Source: Methanomassiliicoccales archaeon (lineage in GTDB: Archaea; Thermoplasmatota; Thermoplasmata; Methanomassiliicoccales; JACIVX01). Taken from it: a stretch of DNA of 64,000 nucleotides. Below, one piece after another: positions 2,634 through 11,938 of this stretch. Each line of letters opens with the position of its first letter. The first letter of the stretch is position 1. The position numbers were made by a program, and so were the translations under genes. The notes below the pieces were generated by a model. The model did no database searches. It saw only the letters and a program-made list of their open reading frames with translations, and was not told where the DNA came from. The stretch covers positions 1-64,000 of the forward strand of contig JAWCLO010000002.1 in NCBI GenBank assembly GCA_038850735.1, written 5' to 3'.

Positions 2634-3347
2634 TTGTCGCAAAATGGTAGAATAAAAACATATGTAGAAGGATTTGACAAGGTTCTGGAAGGCGGTATAC
2701 CTGCGGGTAACATTGTGCTGATTGCGGGGACACCGGGAACAATGAAGTCGTCGCTTACGTACTATATATTGTATCATCACGCCACTGAGAGTGGAAAGAT
2801 CGGTGTTTATGTCACTCTCGAACAATCCAGAGAAAGTCTCCTTCGCCAAATGGAAAAAATGGGGATGCCAACGGAACCCGTTATTGATAAACTCCATGTC
2901 CTCGACCTCAGTCTGCTCAGAAAGAAATTGCGGCAGATCTCGGGAGCTGGTTCTTGGCTACACGTTTTCAAGGCCTATTTACAAAATCTTAACGAGAATT
3001 TAAAATACGAGTTGCTAGCAATCGATTCACTGGATGTACTGGAAACGATGGCCGAAATCACCAATAGGCGAACTGAGCTTTTCTATTTATTCCAATGGTT
3101 AAAAGAATTAGGTGCCACCGTCTTTCTGATTTCTGAAGCATCACCTGAGAAAATCCTTGAGGGGACATTTGATGAAGGATATCTTTCCGATGGAATAATT
3201 ACTCTCAAAATGCAAGTCGTTAGGGATGTTGAGACGCAAAGGCGCATTAGGTGCGTAAAGATGCGAGAAACAAATCACGATCCTTCGTATTTCACACTTC
3301 TTTTCAATGCAAATAGATTCCAGGTCACCAAAGTCATAAGCGAATGA
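2634..3347 (+). CDS. KaiC-like RecA-superfamily ATPase, paralogue 1
   Basis: A single-domain RecA/KaiC/RAD55-family ATPase of 237 residues. The Walker A motif is GTPGTMKSS (~32-40), with Met in place of the usual Gly before Lys. The position of the paired catalytic glutamates of KaiC reads TLEQS (~60-64), so the second acid is Gln. Walker B is LLAIDSLDVLE (~125-135), followed by FLISE and the C-terminal DGIITLK strand typical of KaiC domains. The TTG start is chosen because GGAGGGG lies 5 nt upstream. It is the first of three tandem paralogues and overlaps or abuts the second. KaiC-like proteins in archaea act in signalling and in motility or stress regulation; the actual role here is unknown. 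Confidence 0.85.
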   Translation: MSQNGRIKTYVEGFDKVLEGGIPAGNIVLIAGTPGTMKSSLTYYILYHHATESGKIGVYVTLEQSRESLLRQMEKMGMPTEPVIDKLHVLDLSLLRKKLRQISGAGSWLHVFKAYLQNLNENLKYELLAIDSLDVLETMAEITNRRTELFYLFQWLKELGATVFLISEASPEKILEGTFDEGYLSDGIITLKMQVVRDVETQRRIRCVKMRETNHDPSYFTLLFNANRFQVTKVISE

Positions 3348-3361
3348 GGCCTGGTGGACAG

Positions 3362-4864
3362 ATGAAGAAGAAATATGAATGCCCAAGATGCGGTGCTGGT
3401 ATCAAACCCGGCGATATACAGTGTGACAGATGTGGCGAAATATTGAAGCCTGTGGAGTCAAAAAAAGACACGCCATCACTTTCTGTCACGGTTGAGAAAG
3501 TTCTCAGTGAGGAAGAAGTCTCAGTAGCTTTTGGTCAATCAGAGTATCTTACGATTTCAAGGCAAAAGCAACTGCTCGTTCAAAGGGAAGCGGAGATTAC
3601 CAAAAAAGAAAAAGAATTGAAAGAAAAAGAAAGAAAATTGTTGGAGACGATCGAGGCACTTGAAAGAGATAATCAAGCACTTGAGGAAGCAATGAAGAGA
3701 TGCAAAGAATTTGAAACGGAACTAAGAGCGAGAGAGGAAGCTTTACTAAGCAGAGAAAGTGAGTTGGAAACGCTTGCTATGAAACTTGAGAAGCAGATGA
3801 GAGAACTTGAAATATCCGCTGGTTCTGGCAGGAAAATCAAGCTGACTGATGAGGAATTTGAGAGACTTTTGGCGCTCAAAGAGGACTATGAGAAAGCGCT
3901 GAATGAGGGGTACGCTCGATTAAGAAAGCAGATCGAAGAAGAGCTCAAGGAACGATTCGAGAAGCTTATACAGCTTCAGAAACAAATTGAGGCCGTTGAT
4001 ATATCCCATCGTATAATTCCTGAGACCCAAGATGGGAAAGTGAGAGATAGAGAAGAAAAAATATCAATAGAACCCGCTGAAACTTTAGATCTCAGTAGTA
4101 TCATTGAAGAACTAAAAAGGGAGGCCGATCTGCAAACAAAAACTATTGTCGGTAAAGAACCGATTGACATGAGAATAAGAACACACATTGAGAGACTTGA
4201 TGTTGCTATGGGAGGGGGGATTCCAGCTGGCAACGTGATTCTCATAAATGGCTGTGCTGGAACGATGAAATCAACGCTTGCTTACGCAATTCTTTACAAT
4301 TCCGCCATTCATGAAGGTCTCAATAGCATGTATTTTTCCCTCGAACAGAGTAGAGAATCGCTTCTTAACCAGATGGAGAAAATGGGGATGCCGAAGGAGA
4401 AGTCGGGAAACAAAGTTCTAGTCGTGGACATGATCGATCTTCGGAAGCGGATGGTGAAGGAGAGAGGAGATTGGCGCAACATTCTAATGAGGTATGTTGG
4501 AAATATAAAAAAGGAATGGGACTTCAAGATATTTGTTCTCGACTCAATAGAATCGTTTAAGTCATTGACAGACTATCAGCTTTCTCGCCAAGACCTCAAA
4601 GACCTATTTGACTGGTTCAGATCACTTAACATGACAGTTCTATTGATTTCAGAGAAACCGCTAGAGGTTCTCCTTGATAATGCGGAAAGCGAAGCATATC
4701 TTGCTGACGGGATTATTGAAATGCGCATGAAGGAGATTGATGACGTTAGAGTCCAGCGATGGCTAAGAGTTCTGAAAATGCGCGGCACTGAGATAGATCC
4801 GCGTTACTTCTCTTTTACGCACGATGGCAGTAGATTCAACCTAACTGTGCCTATAGTTGAATGA
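3362..4864 (+). CDS. Zinc-ribbon/coiled-coil/KaiC-like ATPase fusion, paralogue 2
   Basis: A 500-residue protein with three parts. An N-terminal zinc ribbon has two CxxC pairs (CPRCGAG and CDRCGEI, residues ~6-28). A long Glu/Lys-rich coiled coil spans roughly residues 70-215. A C-terminal KaiC-like ATPase domain (~265-500) follows. Its P-loop reads CAGTMKST and its second motif SLEQSRESLL, the same TMKS and LEQ signatures as the flanking paralogues; Walker B is IFVLDSIES. ATG 3362 is preferred over ATG 3344 because GGTGG lies 5 nt before it. The gene starts just after paralogue 1 ends, so translation is probably coupled. The coiled coil would promote oligomerisation and the ribbon suggests a nucleic-acid or protein contact; both are inferences. 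Confidence 0.82.
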   Translation: MKKKYECPRCGAGIKPGDIQCDRCGEILKPVESKKDTPSLSVTVEKVLSEEEVSVAFGQSEYLTISRQKQLLVQREAEITKKEKELKEKERKLLETIEALERDNQALEEAMKRCKEFETELRAREEALLSRESELETLAMKLEKQMRELEISAGSGRKIKLTDEEFERLLALKEDYEKALNEGYARLRKQIEEELKERFEKLIQLQKQIEAVDISHRIIPETQDGKVRDREEKISIEPAETLDLSSIIEELKREADLQTKTIVGKEPIDMRIRTHIERLDVAMGGGIPAGNVILINGCAGTMKSTLAYAILYNSAIHEGLNSMYFSLEQSRESLLNQMEKMGMPKEKSGNKVLVVDMIDLRKRMVKERGDWRNILMRYVGNIKKEWDFKIFVLDSIESFKSLTDYQLSRQDLKDLFDWFRSLNMTVLLISEKPLEVLLDNAESEAYLADGIIEMRMKEIDDVRVQRWLRVLKMRGTEIDPRYFSFTHDGSRFNLTVPIVE

Positions 4865-4960
4865 AGCCGATGTATAGTAGTTTAATTATGGAACAAGCTG
4901 AAATTGAAGAAAAATTAAATATTCCAGATGCCTTAATCGATACCTGCGGGATGGAAAATT

Positions 4961-5677
4961 ATGGTACACATCGAGAGAATCCGAACTTTTATCCACAACT
5001 TTGATGAAAATCTTCAAGGAGGTATTCCAAAAGGGCAGGTTGTGTTAATTACGGGAACACCTGGAACGATGAAATCTTCCCTTGCTTACAGTATACTTTA
5101 CCACAATGCGCTTCAAAACGGAATAAAAAGTGTTTACATGACGCTCGAACAATCCAAGGATAATCTTCTTCAACAAATGATAAGTATGGGCATGGATGAT
5201 GAGAGAGCGAAGGAATTCATTCATATTCTGGATCTCGGACTCATTAGAAAGAGCCTGACTCAGTTGAGCGCGAAGGGTACATGGCTTCAGGTCTTCAAAA
5301 TGTACGCGGATAGTTTAAAACGCAGCATTGGATACGAGCTGCTTGTTGTGGATTCTCTTGACGTTTTGGAAATGGCGGCGCAAATGGGCGAGAACCGCCG
5401 TACAGAACTTTTTTACCTGTTCGAATGGCTAAGAAACCTCGGAGTCACTTCTTTCCTCATTTCGGAAACTTCTCCAGAGAAGATGCTAGAGAACAAATAC
5501 GACGAAGGATACTTGGCTGATGGAGTGATAAGTCTTAAACTCCAGGAGATCGGCGAAACAGATATCCAGCGAAGGATAAGGGCGGTGAAGATCAGAAGCA
5601 CGAACCACAAGACTGGATATTTTTCGCTGCTATTCAGTGACGGAGTGTTCAGGGCCACTCAGGTAATAACTGAATAG
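4961..5677 (+). CDS. KaiC-like RecA-superfamily ATPase, paralogue 3
   Basis: A single-domain ATPase of 238 residues that closely resembles paralogue 1. It shares the same start pattern (IRTFIHNFDENLQGGIPKG), P-loop GTPGTMKSS, TLEQSKDNLL, Walker B LLVVDSLDVLE and the RRTELFYLFEWL helix. The strong similarity and same orientation point to tandem duplication. ATG 4961 follows a GCGGGATGG stretch ~9 nt upstream that may serve as ribosome site. It is separated from paralogue 2 by 96 bp, which contain no other gene. A tRNA-Val gene follows 56 bp downstream. The biochemical role is unknown. The family normally forms hexamers or filaments and can autophosphorylate, but the altered catalytic-glutamate pair makes that uncertain. 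Confidence 0.84.
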   Translation: MVHIERIRTFIHNFDENLQGGIPKGQVVLITGTPGTMKSSLAYSILYHNALQNGIKSVYMTLEQSKDNLLQQMISMGMDDERAKEFIHILDLGLIRKSLTQLSAKGTWLQVFKMYADSLKRSIGYELLVVDSLDVLEMAAQMGENRRTELFYLFEWLRNLGVTSFLISETSPEKMLENKYDEGYLADGVISLKLQEIGETDIQRRIRAVKIRSTNHKTGYFSLLFSDGVFRATQVITE

Positions 5678-8103: not shown

Positions 8104-9531
8104 ATGAGTAAGAAATTCAGACTCCAAGGAGTTTACCCCGCTCTCGTAACTCCCTTCGACAAGAAAGAAGACATAAACGAAGATGCTCTGAGAAGCCTGG
8201 TTAGGAACATCTTTGATCATGTGGACGGTTTTGTTCCGTGCGGCACAACGGGTGAATTCGAATACATGAGTTACGATGAGCGAAAACGTGTTTTCGATAT
8301 ATGCATTGATGAGGTGAATGGAAAGAAACCTGTCATCGCCGGTACAGGTGATCCTTGCACACGCAACGTGATTGAGCTGACGAAATATGCTCAAGACGCT
8401 GGCGCTGATGCGTGCTTAGTCGTTGCACCGTATTTCTTGCGCCCATCGGACAAAGGAATCTTCGAGCATTTTTACAGACTATCACGAGCCGTTGACATTC
8501 CAATCATTCTATATAACATACCCCAGACGACCGGTGGATACCTGCCAAGAAGAGTCATAGAGGATCTCGCTGACATCGACAATATCGTTGGGCTGAAAGA
8601 CTCATCTGGAAATCTAACATACACGATGGAAGTGCTTGAAAAGACGAAAGGTAAGATTGATATCGTAGTTGGGCACGATGAGGTTGTACTTCCGGCACTA
8701 GCTGGTGGGTGTTCTGGTATGATTCTAGCGAGCGCCCAAGTTTATCCTGATGTCTGGCAGAGAGTTTTCAGAGCTATTAAAGAAGGGAATCTCATAAAAG
8801 GAAGGGAAGAACAACTCAAAGTACAAAAACTCTCCAGAATTTTTTGCAGATATGGTGGGCCAGTTCCTATCAAGATCGCACTAAAATATATGGGAATAGA
8901 CATGGGAAAGACTAGAGGGCCCCTCAAAGAGGGTGGTGTAATTCTTCACGAAGATCGAGAGGAAATAAGACTTGAACTTGAAAAGATAGGAAAAGTCCCA
9001 GTTTCTCAGCCGCCTATCGAGACACCAGAGATCCCTTTGGAGAAGAGATTTGAAGATATAGGAATCACACCAGCAGATATCGTAAATGATGGGGTACTTA
9101 TAGGTAGCGCTTCTGCAGGTTCGGGTATAAACAAGGTACGAATAGATCTTGTTATTGGGAAAAAGGACGGTGTCGTGGGGGTATCGTTTGCGAGTCAACT
9201 CGTTTATTTAAGAAGAGGGTATGAAGCACTGCCAGCCATACTTGAGCCAAATCTCTCAGCAAAACCGAGCTGCCTCATTGTTCCAACGGTTGAATTGAAA
9301 AATCTAAGACAGGCAAACATCATGTATGGACCTGCACAAGCTGGAATTGCCAAGGCCATCGCGGATAAAGTGGAGGCTGCTGTAATACCTAGAGTGATGA
9401 TCGATACACATGTGATGTTAGCTAAGGCATTCGTGCATCCGAACGCGCTAGAACGAGACATCCTTTACAAGAACTTTTACGAGGCTACAATGGAGGCAAT
9501 AGACATGGCCTTCAGAAAGGGGGTGTTGTAA
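8104..9531 (+). CDS. DapA-family aldolase fused to formaldehyde-activating enzyme (Fae) domain, copy 1
   Basis: The N-terminal ~300 residues form a DHDPS/N-acetylneuraminate-lyase (DapA) barrel: CGTTGEF, VVAPYF, YNIPQTTGG (Tyr kept, but no Arg at the aspartate-semialdehyde-binding site of true DapA) and GLKDSSGN with the Schiff-base Lys. After a linker containing EDREEIRLELEKIGK, residues ~325-475 match Fae: RIDLVIG, ILEPNLSAKPSCLIVPTV, RQANIMYGPAQAGIAKAIAD, AFVHPNA and NFYEATMEAI. Known Fae condenses formaldehyde with tetrahydromethanopterin. At the site of the proposed Fae catalytic His (His17 in Methylorubrum extorquens) this copy has Arg. So an aldolase domain, of unknown aldehyde specificity, is joined to a formaldehyde-handling domain. 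It abuts the second copy without a gap. The fold calls are secure; the substrate is unknown. Confidence 0.88.
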   Translation: MSKKFRLQGVYPALVTPFDKKEDINEDALRSLVRNIFDHVDGFVPCGTTGEFEYMSYDERKRVFDICIDEVNGKKPVIAGTGDPCTRNVIELTKYAQDAGADACLVVAPYFLRPSDKGIFEHFYRLSRAVDIPIILYNIPQTTGGYLPRRVIEDLADIDNIVGLKDSSGNLTYTMEVLEKTKGKIDIVVGHDEVVLPALAGGCSGMILASAQVYPDVWQRVFRAIKEGNLIKGREEQLKVQKLSRIFCRYGGPVPIKIALKYMGIDMGKTRGPLKEGGVILHEDREEIRLELEKIGKVPVSQPPIETPEIPLEKRFEDIGITPADIVNDGVLIGSASAGSGINKVRIDLVIGKKDGVVGVSFASQLVYLRRGYEALPAILEPNLSAKPSCLIVPTVELKNLRQANIMYGPAQAGIAKAIADKVEAAVIPRVMIDTHVMLAKAFVHPNALERDILYKNFYEATMEAIDMAFRKGVL

Positions 9532-10998
9532 TTGCCCAGGGCAGAGTGGCTTAAAGGAATATATCCAGCAATCGTCACTCCTTTTAAAAGGGATGAGACT
9601 ATCGATGAAGATGCGCTCAGGAATCTCGTTGATCATTTGATAGATCACGTCAACGGATTTGTCGTGGCTGGAACTACAGGCGAATTCGTTTATTTAACAG
9701 ATCGCGAGCGGATGCGAGCATTAGAGATTGTCATCGACCAAGTTGGGAAGAAAGTCCCTGTGATTGCCGGAACCGGTGCAAGTAGCACAAAAGCCACAGT
9801 CGAACTGACTAAAAATGCGAAGGATATTGGCGCGGATGCCGCGCTCGTGGTGACCCCCTATTACTTCAACCCGACCTGGAAAGAGATATATGAGCACTTC
9901 GACGCTGTAAACGAGGTAGGCCTGCCCATTATCCTCTACAACATACCGCAGTGTGCTGGCATGCACCAGCAGTGGTGGACAACAGAAGGTTTGGCTTATC
10001 TTGACAATGTAATTGGCGTCAAAGATTCTAGCGGAGACATACCTTATATGACAGCACTATTCGAAAAAATTCGAGGAAAAATTAACATACTTTGTGGTCA
10101 CGATGAGGTCGGAACGGCAGCTTTACTCAGTGGAGCTGATGGACTCATTCTTGCAAGTGCAAACTTAATCCCCGATATTTGGCAGAGGATATACAAGCAC
10201 GTACAAAGAGGAGAAATAGAAGAGGCTAGGCAGCTCCAACAGAAGATACAGAAATTAGTGAGAATTATTGCCCGAACTAGCGGAAACCAGGCAGTGAAGG
10301 AGGGACTATGGATGACAGGCATTGATGTTGGCTACTCAAGAAGGCCGACTATGCCCGGAGACGCATTTAGACATGAAGACAGGGAGGAAATGAGAATTGA
10401 ACTCGAAGTTCTTGGCAAGATCAAACCCCGAGAGACGACCTATGTTCTTGGAGACAAAAGAATAGTCACGAGGGTTCCCGCTACGCCACAAACTCCAACG
10501 GTTGTTGACGGATTCGCGCTGAAGGTCGGAGAAGGATACGCTGGACCTCCTGATCATGAAATTGCTCACACCGACCTTTTGATTGGAATAAAGGGAGGGC
10601 CGGTTGAAATAGCTATTGAGAGGGCACTCCAGGCTGATGCTGGCCAAGGAAAGATGAGAATTGTTAACGATCTCCCTCGTACGCTGCTTGTACCAACCGT
10701 TACGCCTAGAACGAAAAAACAAGAGGAGTTGCTTTATGTGCACGCAGTGGCAGGCTTGAAATGGGCTATAGATGCGAGTATCCAAGATGGTTTCCTTCCC
10801 CGTGAGATTCTTGAAGACATAGTGCTTCTTGCGAACGTGTTTGTTCATCCTGCAGCTGCCAATAGACACCGAGTGAAAGTCAATAACTACAAGGCGGCAA
10901 GGTATGCGATAAGAAAGGCGATTGAGGGAAGACCTACTCTGGATGAAATATTTTACCAAAAAGAGTCAGTTAGGCATCCGTTCAAGTACACACCATAG
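9532..10998 (+). CDS. DapA-family aldolase fused to formaldehyde-activating enzyme (Fae) domain, copy 2
   Basis: Same two-domain architecture as the preceding gene, with clear divergence. DapA domain (~1-300): AGTTGEF, VVTPYYFNP, YNIPQCAG and GVKDSSGD with the Schiff-base Lys. The Fae-like domain (~328-488) keeps the catalytic His (EIAHTDLLIG) and the complete Fae C-terminus ending ESVRHPF. However, the conserved FGPAQ segment is replaced (LLYVHAVAGLKWAID), and FVHPAAANRHRVKVNNYKAA follows the usual strand. TTG start directly after the TAA of copy 1, with GGGGGTG just upstream, implies translational coupling. The pair therefore looks like subunits of one enzyme or two related steps. A 7-bp GC-rich hairpin follows the stop. 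Function is inferred from domains only. Confidence 0.88.
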   Translation: MPRAEWLKGIYPAIVTPFKRDETIDEDALRNLVDHLIDHVNGFVVAGTTGEFVYLTDRERMRALEIVIDQVGKKVPVIAGTGASSTKATVELTKNAKDIGADAALVVTPYYFNPTWKEIYEHFDAVNEVGLPIILYNIPQCAGMHQQWWTTEGLAYLDNVIGVKDSSGDIPYMTALFEKIRGKINILCGHDEVGTAALLSGADGLILASANLIPDIWQRIYKHVQRGEIEEARQLQQKIQKLVRIIARTSGNQAVKEGLWMTGIDVGYSRRPTMPGDAFRHEDREEMRIELEVLGKIKPRETTYVLGDKRIVTRVPATPQTPTVVDGFALKVGEGYAGPPDHEIAHTDLLIGIKGGPVEIAIERALQADAGQGKMRIVNDLPRTLLVPTVTPRTKKQEELLYVHAVAGLKWAIDASIQDGFLPREILEDIVLLANVFVHPAAANRHRVKVNNYKAARYAIRKAIEGRPTLDEIFYQKESVRHPFKYTP

Positions 10999-11185: not shown

Positions 11186-11938
11186 TCATGTAACGCTTTT
11201 CGTCATTGGCTCGACATAATATTTGCAGTGGCTATAACCGCTTGCTAAGCATTCTGCGTCCATTATAATACTCAATCGCATGCCCATGCAGCTTTCTAAG
11301 ATTCCACCGATTATCCCCTCGTTTAGAATACAAAAACTCCGACCTGTCTCCGGCATCCGATGACAATTGTATTCGTCCCTTATGATCAAAATAAGAGGTC
11401 TGACTGAATATACACAGACCTCACCTAATTCGTGCTGCTCATAGAAAATCTTGATCTCTTTTATAACGCCGTCAAGAGTTGACGACTTTATACGCTTTGA
11501 TATTTCCGCGCCTATGAGTCTTCCGATATCTCTCAACATAGGCTCCATCCTGAGTCCAATCGATTCCATTCCTATAATGATAGATCGAATTACGCCCTTC
11601 AAGAAACTACTAGGCAATCCGATCGATCCTGCAATAGTATTACCTATTGCGAGTTTCAGATCTTCTCTCGGTTCGGCTGAAGATCCGATCGGTTTTGAGA
11701 TCAGAAAATAAACTTTCCTTCTACTATCCGTCGGATCATCTTTGAAAGAAATAAGATCATCTTTGACCAATTCTTCGAGGTGTCCTGATATTGTTGATTG
11801 TGCCTTTCCAGTGATGTCCGATATGTCGCTTAAACTGAGTTCCCTTTTTTGCAGCTCCAAGAGAATTCTTTGTCGAAGTGGATTTGATACCTGTTTTAAA
11901 CCCTTTGGAGTAAGATACACCTGAAAGAATCCATTCAT
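11186..11938 (-). CDS. MsvR-like transcriptional regulator: ArsR-type HTH plus V4R domain
   Basis: Residues ~8-75 are a winged helix of the ArsR type (PLRQRILLELQKRELSLSD, then GKAQSTISGHLEELVKDDL as recognition helix, then a basic wing). Residues ~95-245 are a 4-vinyl-reductase (V4R) domain ending ASGYSHCKYYVEP, with Cys residues at several positions (VCVYSV, YNCHRM, RSFCILN, ESCMG, AECLASGYSHC). The combination is that of MsvR, a redox-responsive regulator described in methanogens, in which V4R cysteines sense oxidation. It converges on the DapA-Fae operon and diverges from mtnA, with 193 bp between the two starts, so it may regulate itself and mtnA. Redox sensing here is inference. Confidence 0.78.
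   Translation of the reverse strand: MNGFFQVYLTPKGLKQVSNPLRQRILLELQKRELSLSDISDITGKAQSTISGHLEELVKDDLISFKDDPTDSRRKVYFLISKPIGSSAEPREDLKLAIGNTIAGSIGLPSSFLKGVIRSIIIGMESIGLRMEPMLRDIGRLIGAEISKRIKSSTLDGVIKEIKIFYEQHELGEVCVYSVRPLILIIRDEYNCHRMPETGRSFCILNEGIIGGILESCMGMRLSIIMDAECLASGYSHCKYYVEPMTKSVT

Follow-up and report, generated by a model that had tools for sequence, protein, structure and literature searches.

Paired DapA-type aldolase–Fae fusions in Methanomassiliicoccales: complementary Fae domains and a possible composite active site

Introduction

What might two genes be doing that lie end to end in the genome of a Methanomassiliicoccales archaeon, each encoding a DapA-type aldolase fused to a formaldehyde-activating enzyme (Fae) domain? 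The question arises from a stretch of 64,000 nucleotides, hereafter the window (contig JAWCLO010000002.1 of assembly GCA_038850735.1, positions 1 to 64,000), in which a first-pass annotation had pointed out the pair, had known of no described fusion of this kind, and had proposed that it couples aldolase chemistry to one-carbon (C1) transfer. The DapA–Fae family proves to be real, conserved and apparently undescribed, as no description was found in the literature searched. Its two members, called A (copy 1) and B (copy 2) below, have lost opposite parts of the Fae active site, and to judge from their sequences they probably work only together, as an obligate heteromer. The explanation that we favour, with a rough probability of 0.45, is that A and B are the subunits of a single hetero-oligomeric bifunctional enzyme, in which a composite Fae site and aldolase barrels would share in the chemistry of C1-pterin, formaldehyde and pyruvate.

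The gene pair and its domains

The two genes and their domains were delimited as follows.

8104–9531, forward strand: copy 1 (A), DapA-type aldolase–Fae fusion, 475 aa, ATG start (open reading frame list, Pfam, NCBIfam, orthologues)
8122–8931, forward strand: copy 1 barrel of the DHDPS/N-acetylneuraminate lyase (NAL) superfamily (PF00701)
9100–9516, forward strand: copy 1 Fae domain (PF08714, PDB matches)
9532–10998, forward strand: copy 2 (B), DapA-type aldolase–Fae fusion, 488 aa (open reading frame list, Pfam)
9550–10362, forward strand: copy 2 barrel of the DHDPS/NAL superfamily (PF00701)
10525–10983, forward strand: copy 2 Fae domain (PF08714, PDB matches)

The start codon of copy 2 is a TTG immediately 3′ of the copy 1 TAA, and orthologues have ATG at the same position. 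All four domain matches are well over the Pfam gathering cut-offs: PF00701 covers residues 7–276 of copy 1 (E 5.2e-67) and 7–277 of copy 2 (E 3.4e-74), and PF08714 covers residues 333–471 of copy 1 (E 2e-38, 132.3 bits) and 332–484 of copy 2 (E 2.2e-28, 99.7 bits; cut-off 27 in both cases). The barrel–Fae fusion read at first pass is thus present in both genes, and every motif then quoted is found in the sequences. A failure of the C-terminal half to match Fae in profile searches had been named as something that would undo the proposal; the match was obtained for both copies. The NCBIfam model one_C_fae gives 139.6 bits for copy 1, above its cut-off of 118, and 115.6 bits for copy 2, slightly below it. 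With phmmer, the only PDB matches of either C-terminal half are chains of Methylobacterium extorquens Fae (1y5y/1y60, and an Avd construct with identical sequence). A search of the whole genome (1.66 Mb, 98% complete) found no other Fae. Because it is conserved, and under purifying selection in synonymous-site comparisons, the pair is not a product of chance.

Complementary losses in the Fae domains

In what follows, Fae residues are numbered as in M. extorquens Fae and counts are taken over 92 fusion rows. The parts of the active site are located thus.

9139–9141, forward strand: copy 1 Arg346, at the position of Fae His22; the C-terminal arm is absent from this copy
9244–9267, forward strand: copy 1 EPNLSAKP (PNLxxK loop)
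9337–9339, forward strand: copy 1 Gln412 (Gln88)
10567–10569, forward strand: copy 2 His346 (His22)
10963–10983, forward strand: copy 2 C-terminal arm, ESVRHPF

In copy 2 the PNLxxK loop is deleted and Val406 occupies the position of Gln88. The motifs chosen as examples at first pass were already divided in this way, copy 1 alone having GPAQ and PNLxxK, and copy 2 alone AHxDL and the HPF arm. The division holds across the family: A copies carry Gln88 (37/37) and mostly the loop, with His22 in 2 of 37 and the arm in none, and all 24 B copies have His22, Asp24 and His121, 23 of them with the arm, none with Gln88, and with the loop deleted. If a Fae is recognised by His22, Gln88 and the PNLxxK loop in one chain, only the single-copy fusions found elsewhere qualify; these have a complete active site, arm included. 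The C-terminal domains therefore belong to the Fae family, as had been claimed, but neither copy has a complete site by itself, and the two halves complement each other.

We take His22 to be the acid catalyst of Fae, Gln88 to lie at the pterin, and the C-terminal arm to become ordered upon binding. The work of Acharya et al. in 2005 is said to have found the Fae of 1y60 to be a homopentamer, with methylene-tetrahydromethanopterin in the cleft between adjacent subunits. Given a pterin bound between subunits and losses that are complementary, the sequences are best read as those of an obligate A+B complex whose site is composite. We infer from the sequences a hetero-oligomer in which the Fae domains of A and B would form the site at their interface, copy 2 supplying the catalytic His22, Asp24 and the C-terminal arm, and copy 1 the PNLxxK loop and Gln88.

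Aldolase barrels

Four residues of the barrels are needed here.

8434–8436, forward strand: copy 1 Phe111, at the position of DHDPS Tyr107
8596–8598, forward strand: copy 1 Schiff-base Lys165 (alignment to DHDPS)
9862–9864, forward strand: copy 2 Tyr111 (DHDPS Tyr107)
10021–10023, forward strand: copy 2 Schiff-base Lys164 (alignment to DHDPS)

Both barrels thus have the Schiff-base lysine ascribed to them. The substrate Arg that follows YNxP in DHDPS (Arg138 in Escherichia coli) is absent from both copies, which read YNIPQTTG and YNIPQCAG, and a separate canonical DapA with this Arg (YNVPSRTSSN) is encoded in the same genome; the earlier view that the pair is not true DapA is borne out on both counts. 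Outside one Methanomassiliicoccales genus, g21 (see below), every A, B and single copy has the Schiff-base Lys, the YNIP Tyr and GTTGE, bar small changes in one single-copy row, and every one lacks the aspartate-semialdehyde-binding Arg. Could the pair nevertheless be an additional DHDPS of the lysine pathway with a decaying accessory domain? dapA is indeed the best NCBIfam match of both barrels, above its cut-off, but this idea is scarcely credible and already contradicted by the missing Arg, by the canonical DapA elsewhere in the genome, and by Fae domains that are conserved rather than decaying.

The barrels also have a G-[HYW]-D-E motif similar to that of N-acetylneuraminate lyases. As to identity within that group, NanA, PRK04147 and Arch_KDGaldase all fall far below their NCBIfam cut-offs in both copies. 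An AlphaFold2 model of the FaeA-DapAB-FaeB read-through (predicted local distance difference test, pLDDT, 79.5; predicted template modelling score 0.62) is matched about equally by N-acetylneuraminate lyases and DHDPS in Foldseek. The N-terminal barrels are accordingly predicted to be pyruvate Schiff-base aldolases of the DHDPS/N-acetylneuraminate lyase superfamily, and not DHDPS. In the DHDPS dimer, Tyr107 is contributed to the neighbouring active site. At the equivalent position the A copies of Methanomassiliicoccales and Anaerolineae have Phe and most B copies have Tyr, a difference which may be a second, weak hint of A:B dimers.

Distribution and evolution

Fae occurs in 10 of 147 Methanomassiliicoccales genomes, spread over three families, and apart from one fragment at a contig edge it is always a DapA–Fae fusion. 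The genome survey that had been suggested also recovers the architecture in Bathyarchaeia, Asgard archaea and Anaerolineae. Among 396 Anaerolineae genomes, 43 have Fae (2 stand-alone canonical, 1 fragment); where the matches are non-canonical, 37 of 41 genomes have exactly two, mostly adjacent, one ending near model position 139–150 (no arm) and the other covering 1–158; a sample of these genomes was read. Single-copy fusions are found in Lokiarchaea-like and Bathyarchaeia genomes, some of those checked having Fae-Hps as well. Two weak Fae matches per genome, as in the two Thorarchaeota that were read individually, occur in about 42 Asgard genomes.

In the Fae-domain tree the fusion forms one clade (support 100/99); in a DapA-domain tree built with broad outgroups this clade is less strong (SH-like approximate likelihood ratio test, 89). 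A and B of Methanomassiliicoccales and Anaerolineae each form a 100% clade in the DapA-domain tree, and both clades divide in two in the same manner, so that the pair appears to have been inherited together, as if moved jointly between archaea and bacteria. The Thorarchaeal copies are long-branched, and a single A/B split for all is not rejected in the DapA-domain tree (approximately unbiased test, p 0.38 and 0.29); in the Fae-domain tree Thorarchaeal A groups with A (100/100) and Thorarchaeal B weakly with B (67/56).

These trees bear on the decidedly unlikely idea that A and B are of separate origin and differ in function, so that their complementary pattern would be coincidental. That they are sometimes apart, on different contigs or 30 kb from each other in some Anaerolineae, would suit it; it has to contend with the near-constant presence of both copies, with A and B clades of matching group structure, and with losses that are opposite at every Fae position checked. 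A speculative and rather unlikely history would start from one enzyme with two functions, aldolase and Fae joined as a pterin-linked pyruvate hydroxymethyl transferase/lyase. After its duplication the Fae site would have been divided between two subunits, as complementary half-sites that are both obligate; the split form would have spread between archaea and Anaerolineae, and the aldolase sites would later have been lost in one Methanomassiliicoccales lineage that retained the split Fae.

Weighing the composite enzyme

That lineage is g21, whose pair was located in three species.

L123:7766–10668: g21 pair
L124:7382–10284: g21 pair
L125:3648–6550: g21 pair

In the two g21 genomes aligned (G129 and G130), the A copy has its Schiff-base Lys changed to Ala, GAEGE in place of GTTGE, and no YNIP; the B copy has Leu for the Lys, SDVGE for GTTGE and HNVC for YNIP. 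The Fae features are retained on both chains. With a third genome (G131) added, the ratios of nonsynonymous to synonymous rates between g21 species are 0.06–0.10 for the barrels and 0.05–0.11 for Fae, low enough to indicate that constraint still acts on the dead barrels, which would serve as scaffold or binder. Since the aldolase sites are dead and the genes constrained, channelling from aldolase to Fae is not needed in g21 and hence not universal, which weakens the coupling first proposed as an obligate one.

In favour of the bifunctional enzyme stand the complementary residue counts, beside single-copy fusions with a full site; the two matches per genome in most Anaerolineae with non-canonical Fae; the monophyly of the fusion and the joint inheritance of A and B; the barrel residues preserved outside g21; the pterin cleft between Fae subunits; and Mch, found in 9 of 11 fusion genomes from other groups. 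The persistence of both g21 genes under purifying selection with both aldolase sites dead is one of several findings that weigh against it. Lys71, a pterin-binding residue of Fae, is kept in all canonical rows and substituted, mostly by Thr, in nearly all fusions. Nor is the split identical everywhere: Thorarchaeal A lacks His22, Asp24 and the arm, and Thorarchaeal B lacks the loop but has Gln88. A five-membered ring is incompatible with strict A/B alternation. Finally, Mch is absent from all 17 Methanomassiliicoccales tested and beta-RFAP synthase was not found in Methanomassiliicoccales, the window's genome included in both cases.

Would an A–B complex without Fae chemistry explain the data better? 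The Fae domains would then serve as a scaffold for binding a pterin or a metabolite, and an aldolase that is still active would act on another aldehyde (e.g., a 2-keto-3-deoxy sugar acid, acetaldehyde or glycolaldehyde). This alternative, which we hold to be somewhat unlikely, draws on the lack of Mch and beta-RFAP synthase in the organism's own genome, the replaced Lys71, the dead g21 aldolase, the lyase-like motif with its mix of NAL and DHDPS fold matches, and the presence, close to the pair in some Anaerolineae, of genes for a class II aldolase, an aldehyde ferredoxin oxidoreductase and an FGGY kinase. It sits poorly with the retention, almost without exception, of His22, Asp24, His121, the arm, Gln88 and the PNLxxK loop, divided over two chains, and with Mch, which accompanies the fusion in 9 of the 11 genomes from outside the order.

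For the composite enzyme, the most likely chemistry by analogy with Fae would be a reversible C1 exchange between a reduced pterin and formaldehyde, the latter being transferred to or from pyruvate at the aldolase (4-hydroxy-2-oxobutanoate). That formaldehyde is the shared intermediate, which 2-oxo acid and which carrier take part, and in which direction the reaction runs are all guesses from the chemistry of the families. Tetrahydromethanopterin (H4MPT), which the first-pass annotation gave as the pterin of Fae, does not suit this organism as the carrier: it lacks Mch and beta-RFAP synthase, and Methanomassiliicoccales are reported to be missing ftr and mch and to have the tetrahydrofolate branch (PMC10804542), so that H4MPT is probably not the carrier here and a folate is likelier. 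In Bathyarchaeia, Asgard archaea and Anaerolineae the pterin would be H4MPT; beta-RFAP synthase is above its cut-off in two Bathyarchaeia only, and split in a third.

Homoserine and lysine

Does the pair instead run in the biosynthetic direction, as had been suggested, building 4-hydroxy-2-oxobutanoate from pyruvate and pterin-bound C1, and from it homoserine in place of homoserine dehydrogenase? In E. coli, the condensation of pyruvate with formaldehyde and the amination to homoserine do work with other aldolases, but the same review terms the intermediate a non-native metabolite (PMC8879981). Homoserine dehydrogenase has no match in seven fusion genomes (both Thorarchaeota, three Bathyarchaeota and two Anaerolineae) and partial matches only in two further Bathyarchaeota, although such metagenome-assembled genomes may be incomplete or their owners auxotrophic. 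The window's genome and most of the relatives with the fusion do encode the dehydrogenase, which removes the need for homoserine through the pair in this organism; with a separate canonical DapA as well, neither homoserine nor lysine supply requires it here. As a general explanation the biosynthetic direction is highly doubtful, but the pair may be a homoserine route for Thorarchaeota and several Bathyarchaeia in whose genomes no dehydrogenase was found.

Neighbouring genes

Do the neighbours help? In Methanomassiliicoccales the A–B pair has the same location in families f1 and f4 and in genus g21 of family f2, upstream of an MsvR-like gene, MtnA, a class II aldolase (Ald2) and Nop. The first of these lies just downstream of the pair in the window.

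11186–11938, reverse strand: MsvR-like V4R/helix-turn-helix regulator (Pfam, NCBIfam), an order-wide neighbour also where the fusion is absent

The MsvR-MtnA-Ald2-Nop order is mostly conserved in Methanomassiliicoccales genomes without the fusion too, so the pair is ancestral in the order and has often been lost, and these neighbours are uninformative on function. For the same reason, the 5′-deoxyadenosine/5′-methylthioadenosine salvage context suggested by the adjoining MtnA and class II aldolase was set aside as positional. Upstream, at window 2634–5677, three related tandem genes form one cluster; the outer two encode products of about 237 aa and the one between them a product of 506 aa, and the third is a KaiC-family ATPase (Pfam).

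Two conserved families, N1 and N2, accompany the fusion in other phyla.

L250:2826–3773, L046:8162–9109, L246:2501–3430 and L239:6201–7136, forward strand: N1, about 312 aa (GIPGRDAYDLPTS), beside DapA–Fae
L236:3648–4931 and L245:460–1743, reverse strand, and L050:11509–12780, forward strand: N2, about 428 aa, beside single-copy DapA–Fae

N1 stands beside the fusion in Anaerolineae, one Bathyarchaeon and two Asgard genomes; it is absent from Methanomassiliicoccales and Thorarchaeota, and present in some Anaerolineae without the fusion. It matches nothing in NCBIfam and nothing meaningful in the PDB, Pfam offers no more than a weak U32 hint, and its single-sequence structure model has a pLDDT of 38. 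N2, found in Lokiarchaea-like and Bathyarchaeia genomes, gave no convincing Pfam, NCBIfam or PDB match. N1 and N2 would be the best lead to the pathway.

Downstream of the A–B pair in two Anaerolineae genomes (L250:7332–11474, L251:6702–10885) lie an aldehyde ferredoxin oxidoreductase, a class II aldolase and an FGGY kinase whose best match, autoinducer-2 kinase, is below cut-off. Two Bathyarchaeia have a nucleoside-phosphorylase-superfamily gene and an amidohydrolase after the fusion (L049:11584–12444, L051:1999–3432), which perhaps reflects nucleoside salvage, or chance.

Comparison with known systems

Fae-Hps, widespread in archaea and found alongside single-copy DapA–Fae in several Bathyarchaeia and Asgard genomes, likewise joins Fae to a triosephosphate isomerase (TIM)-barrel enzyme assumed to use or release formaldehyde. 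The partner in DapA–Fae is however an N-terminal pyruvate Schiff-base aldolase, not a C-terminal Hps, and the replaced Lys71 and the duplication with complementary losses set it further apart; no C-terminal hexulose-6-phosphate synthase domain was found, NF009833 spanning the Fae part only and far below cut-off. Bathyarchaeial Fae-Hps-like proteins (L206–L235) often have an extra 80–120 residues or so ahead of Fae. Compared with stand-alone M. extorquens Fae (1y5y/1y60), the fusion Fae domains are about 30–44% identical, and His22, Asp24, Gln88 and the arm are recognisable across A and B together, but neither has all the residues, both are fused, and Lys71 is replaced.

The barrels share with DHDPS/DapA (TIGR00674) the fold, GTTGE, the YNxP Tyr and the Schiff-base Lys, and differ in lacking the substrate Arg, in KDSSG for KEASG and in the G-[HYW]-D-E motif. 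With N-acetylneuraminate lyase and the other pyruvate aldolases of its superfamily they have in common the Schiff-base chemistry, the G-x-D-E motif and fold matches, but they fall below every NAL/KDG-aldolase NCBIfam cut-off and are joined to Fae. The pyruvate-formaldehyde aldolases of the synthetic homoserine cycle would catalyse the proposed reaction; the enzyme named there (PMC8879981) is RhmA, not a Fae fusion.

Significance

A Fae match in genomes from anaerobic sediments is not by itself proof of formaldehyde oxidation, and the DapA–Fae family gives reason for this caution. If the favoured explanation is true, the family would be a second class of Fae fusion next to Fae-Hps, and it would become testable whether pyruvate and pterin-bound C1 are a natural route to four-carbon 2-oxo acids. 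The pair would also be a natural case of an enzyme turned into an obligate heteromer by duplicates that lost opposite halves of the active site, an event still readable in sequence across archaea and bacteria.

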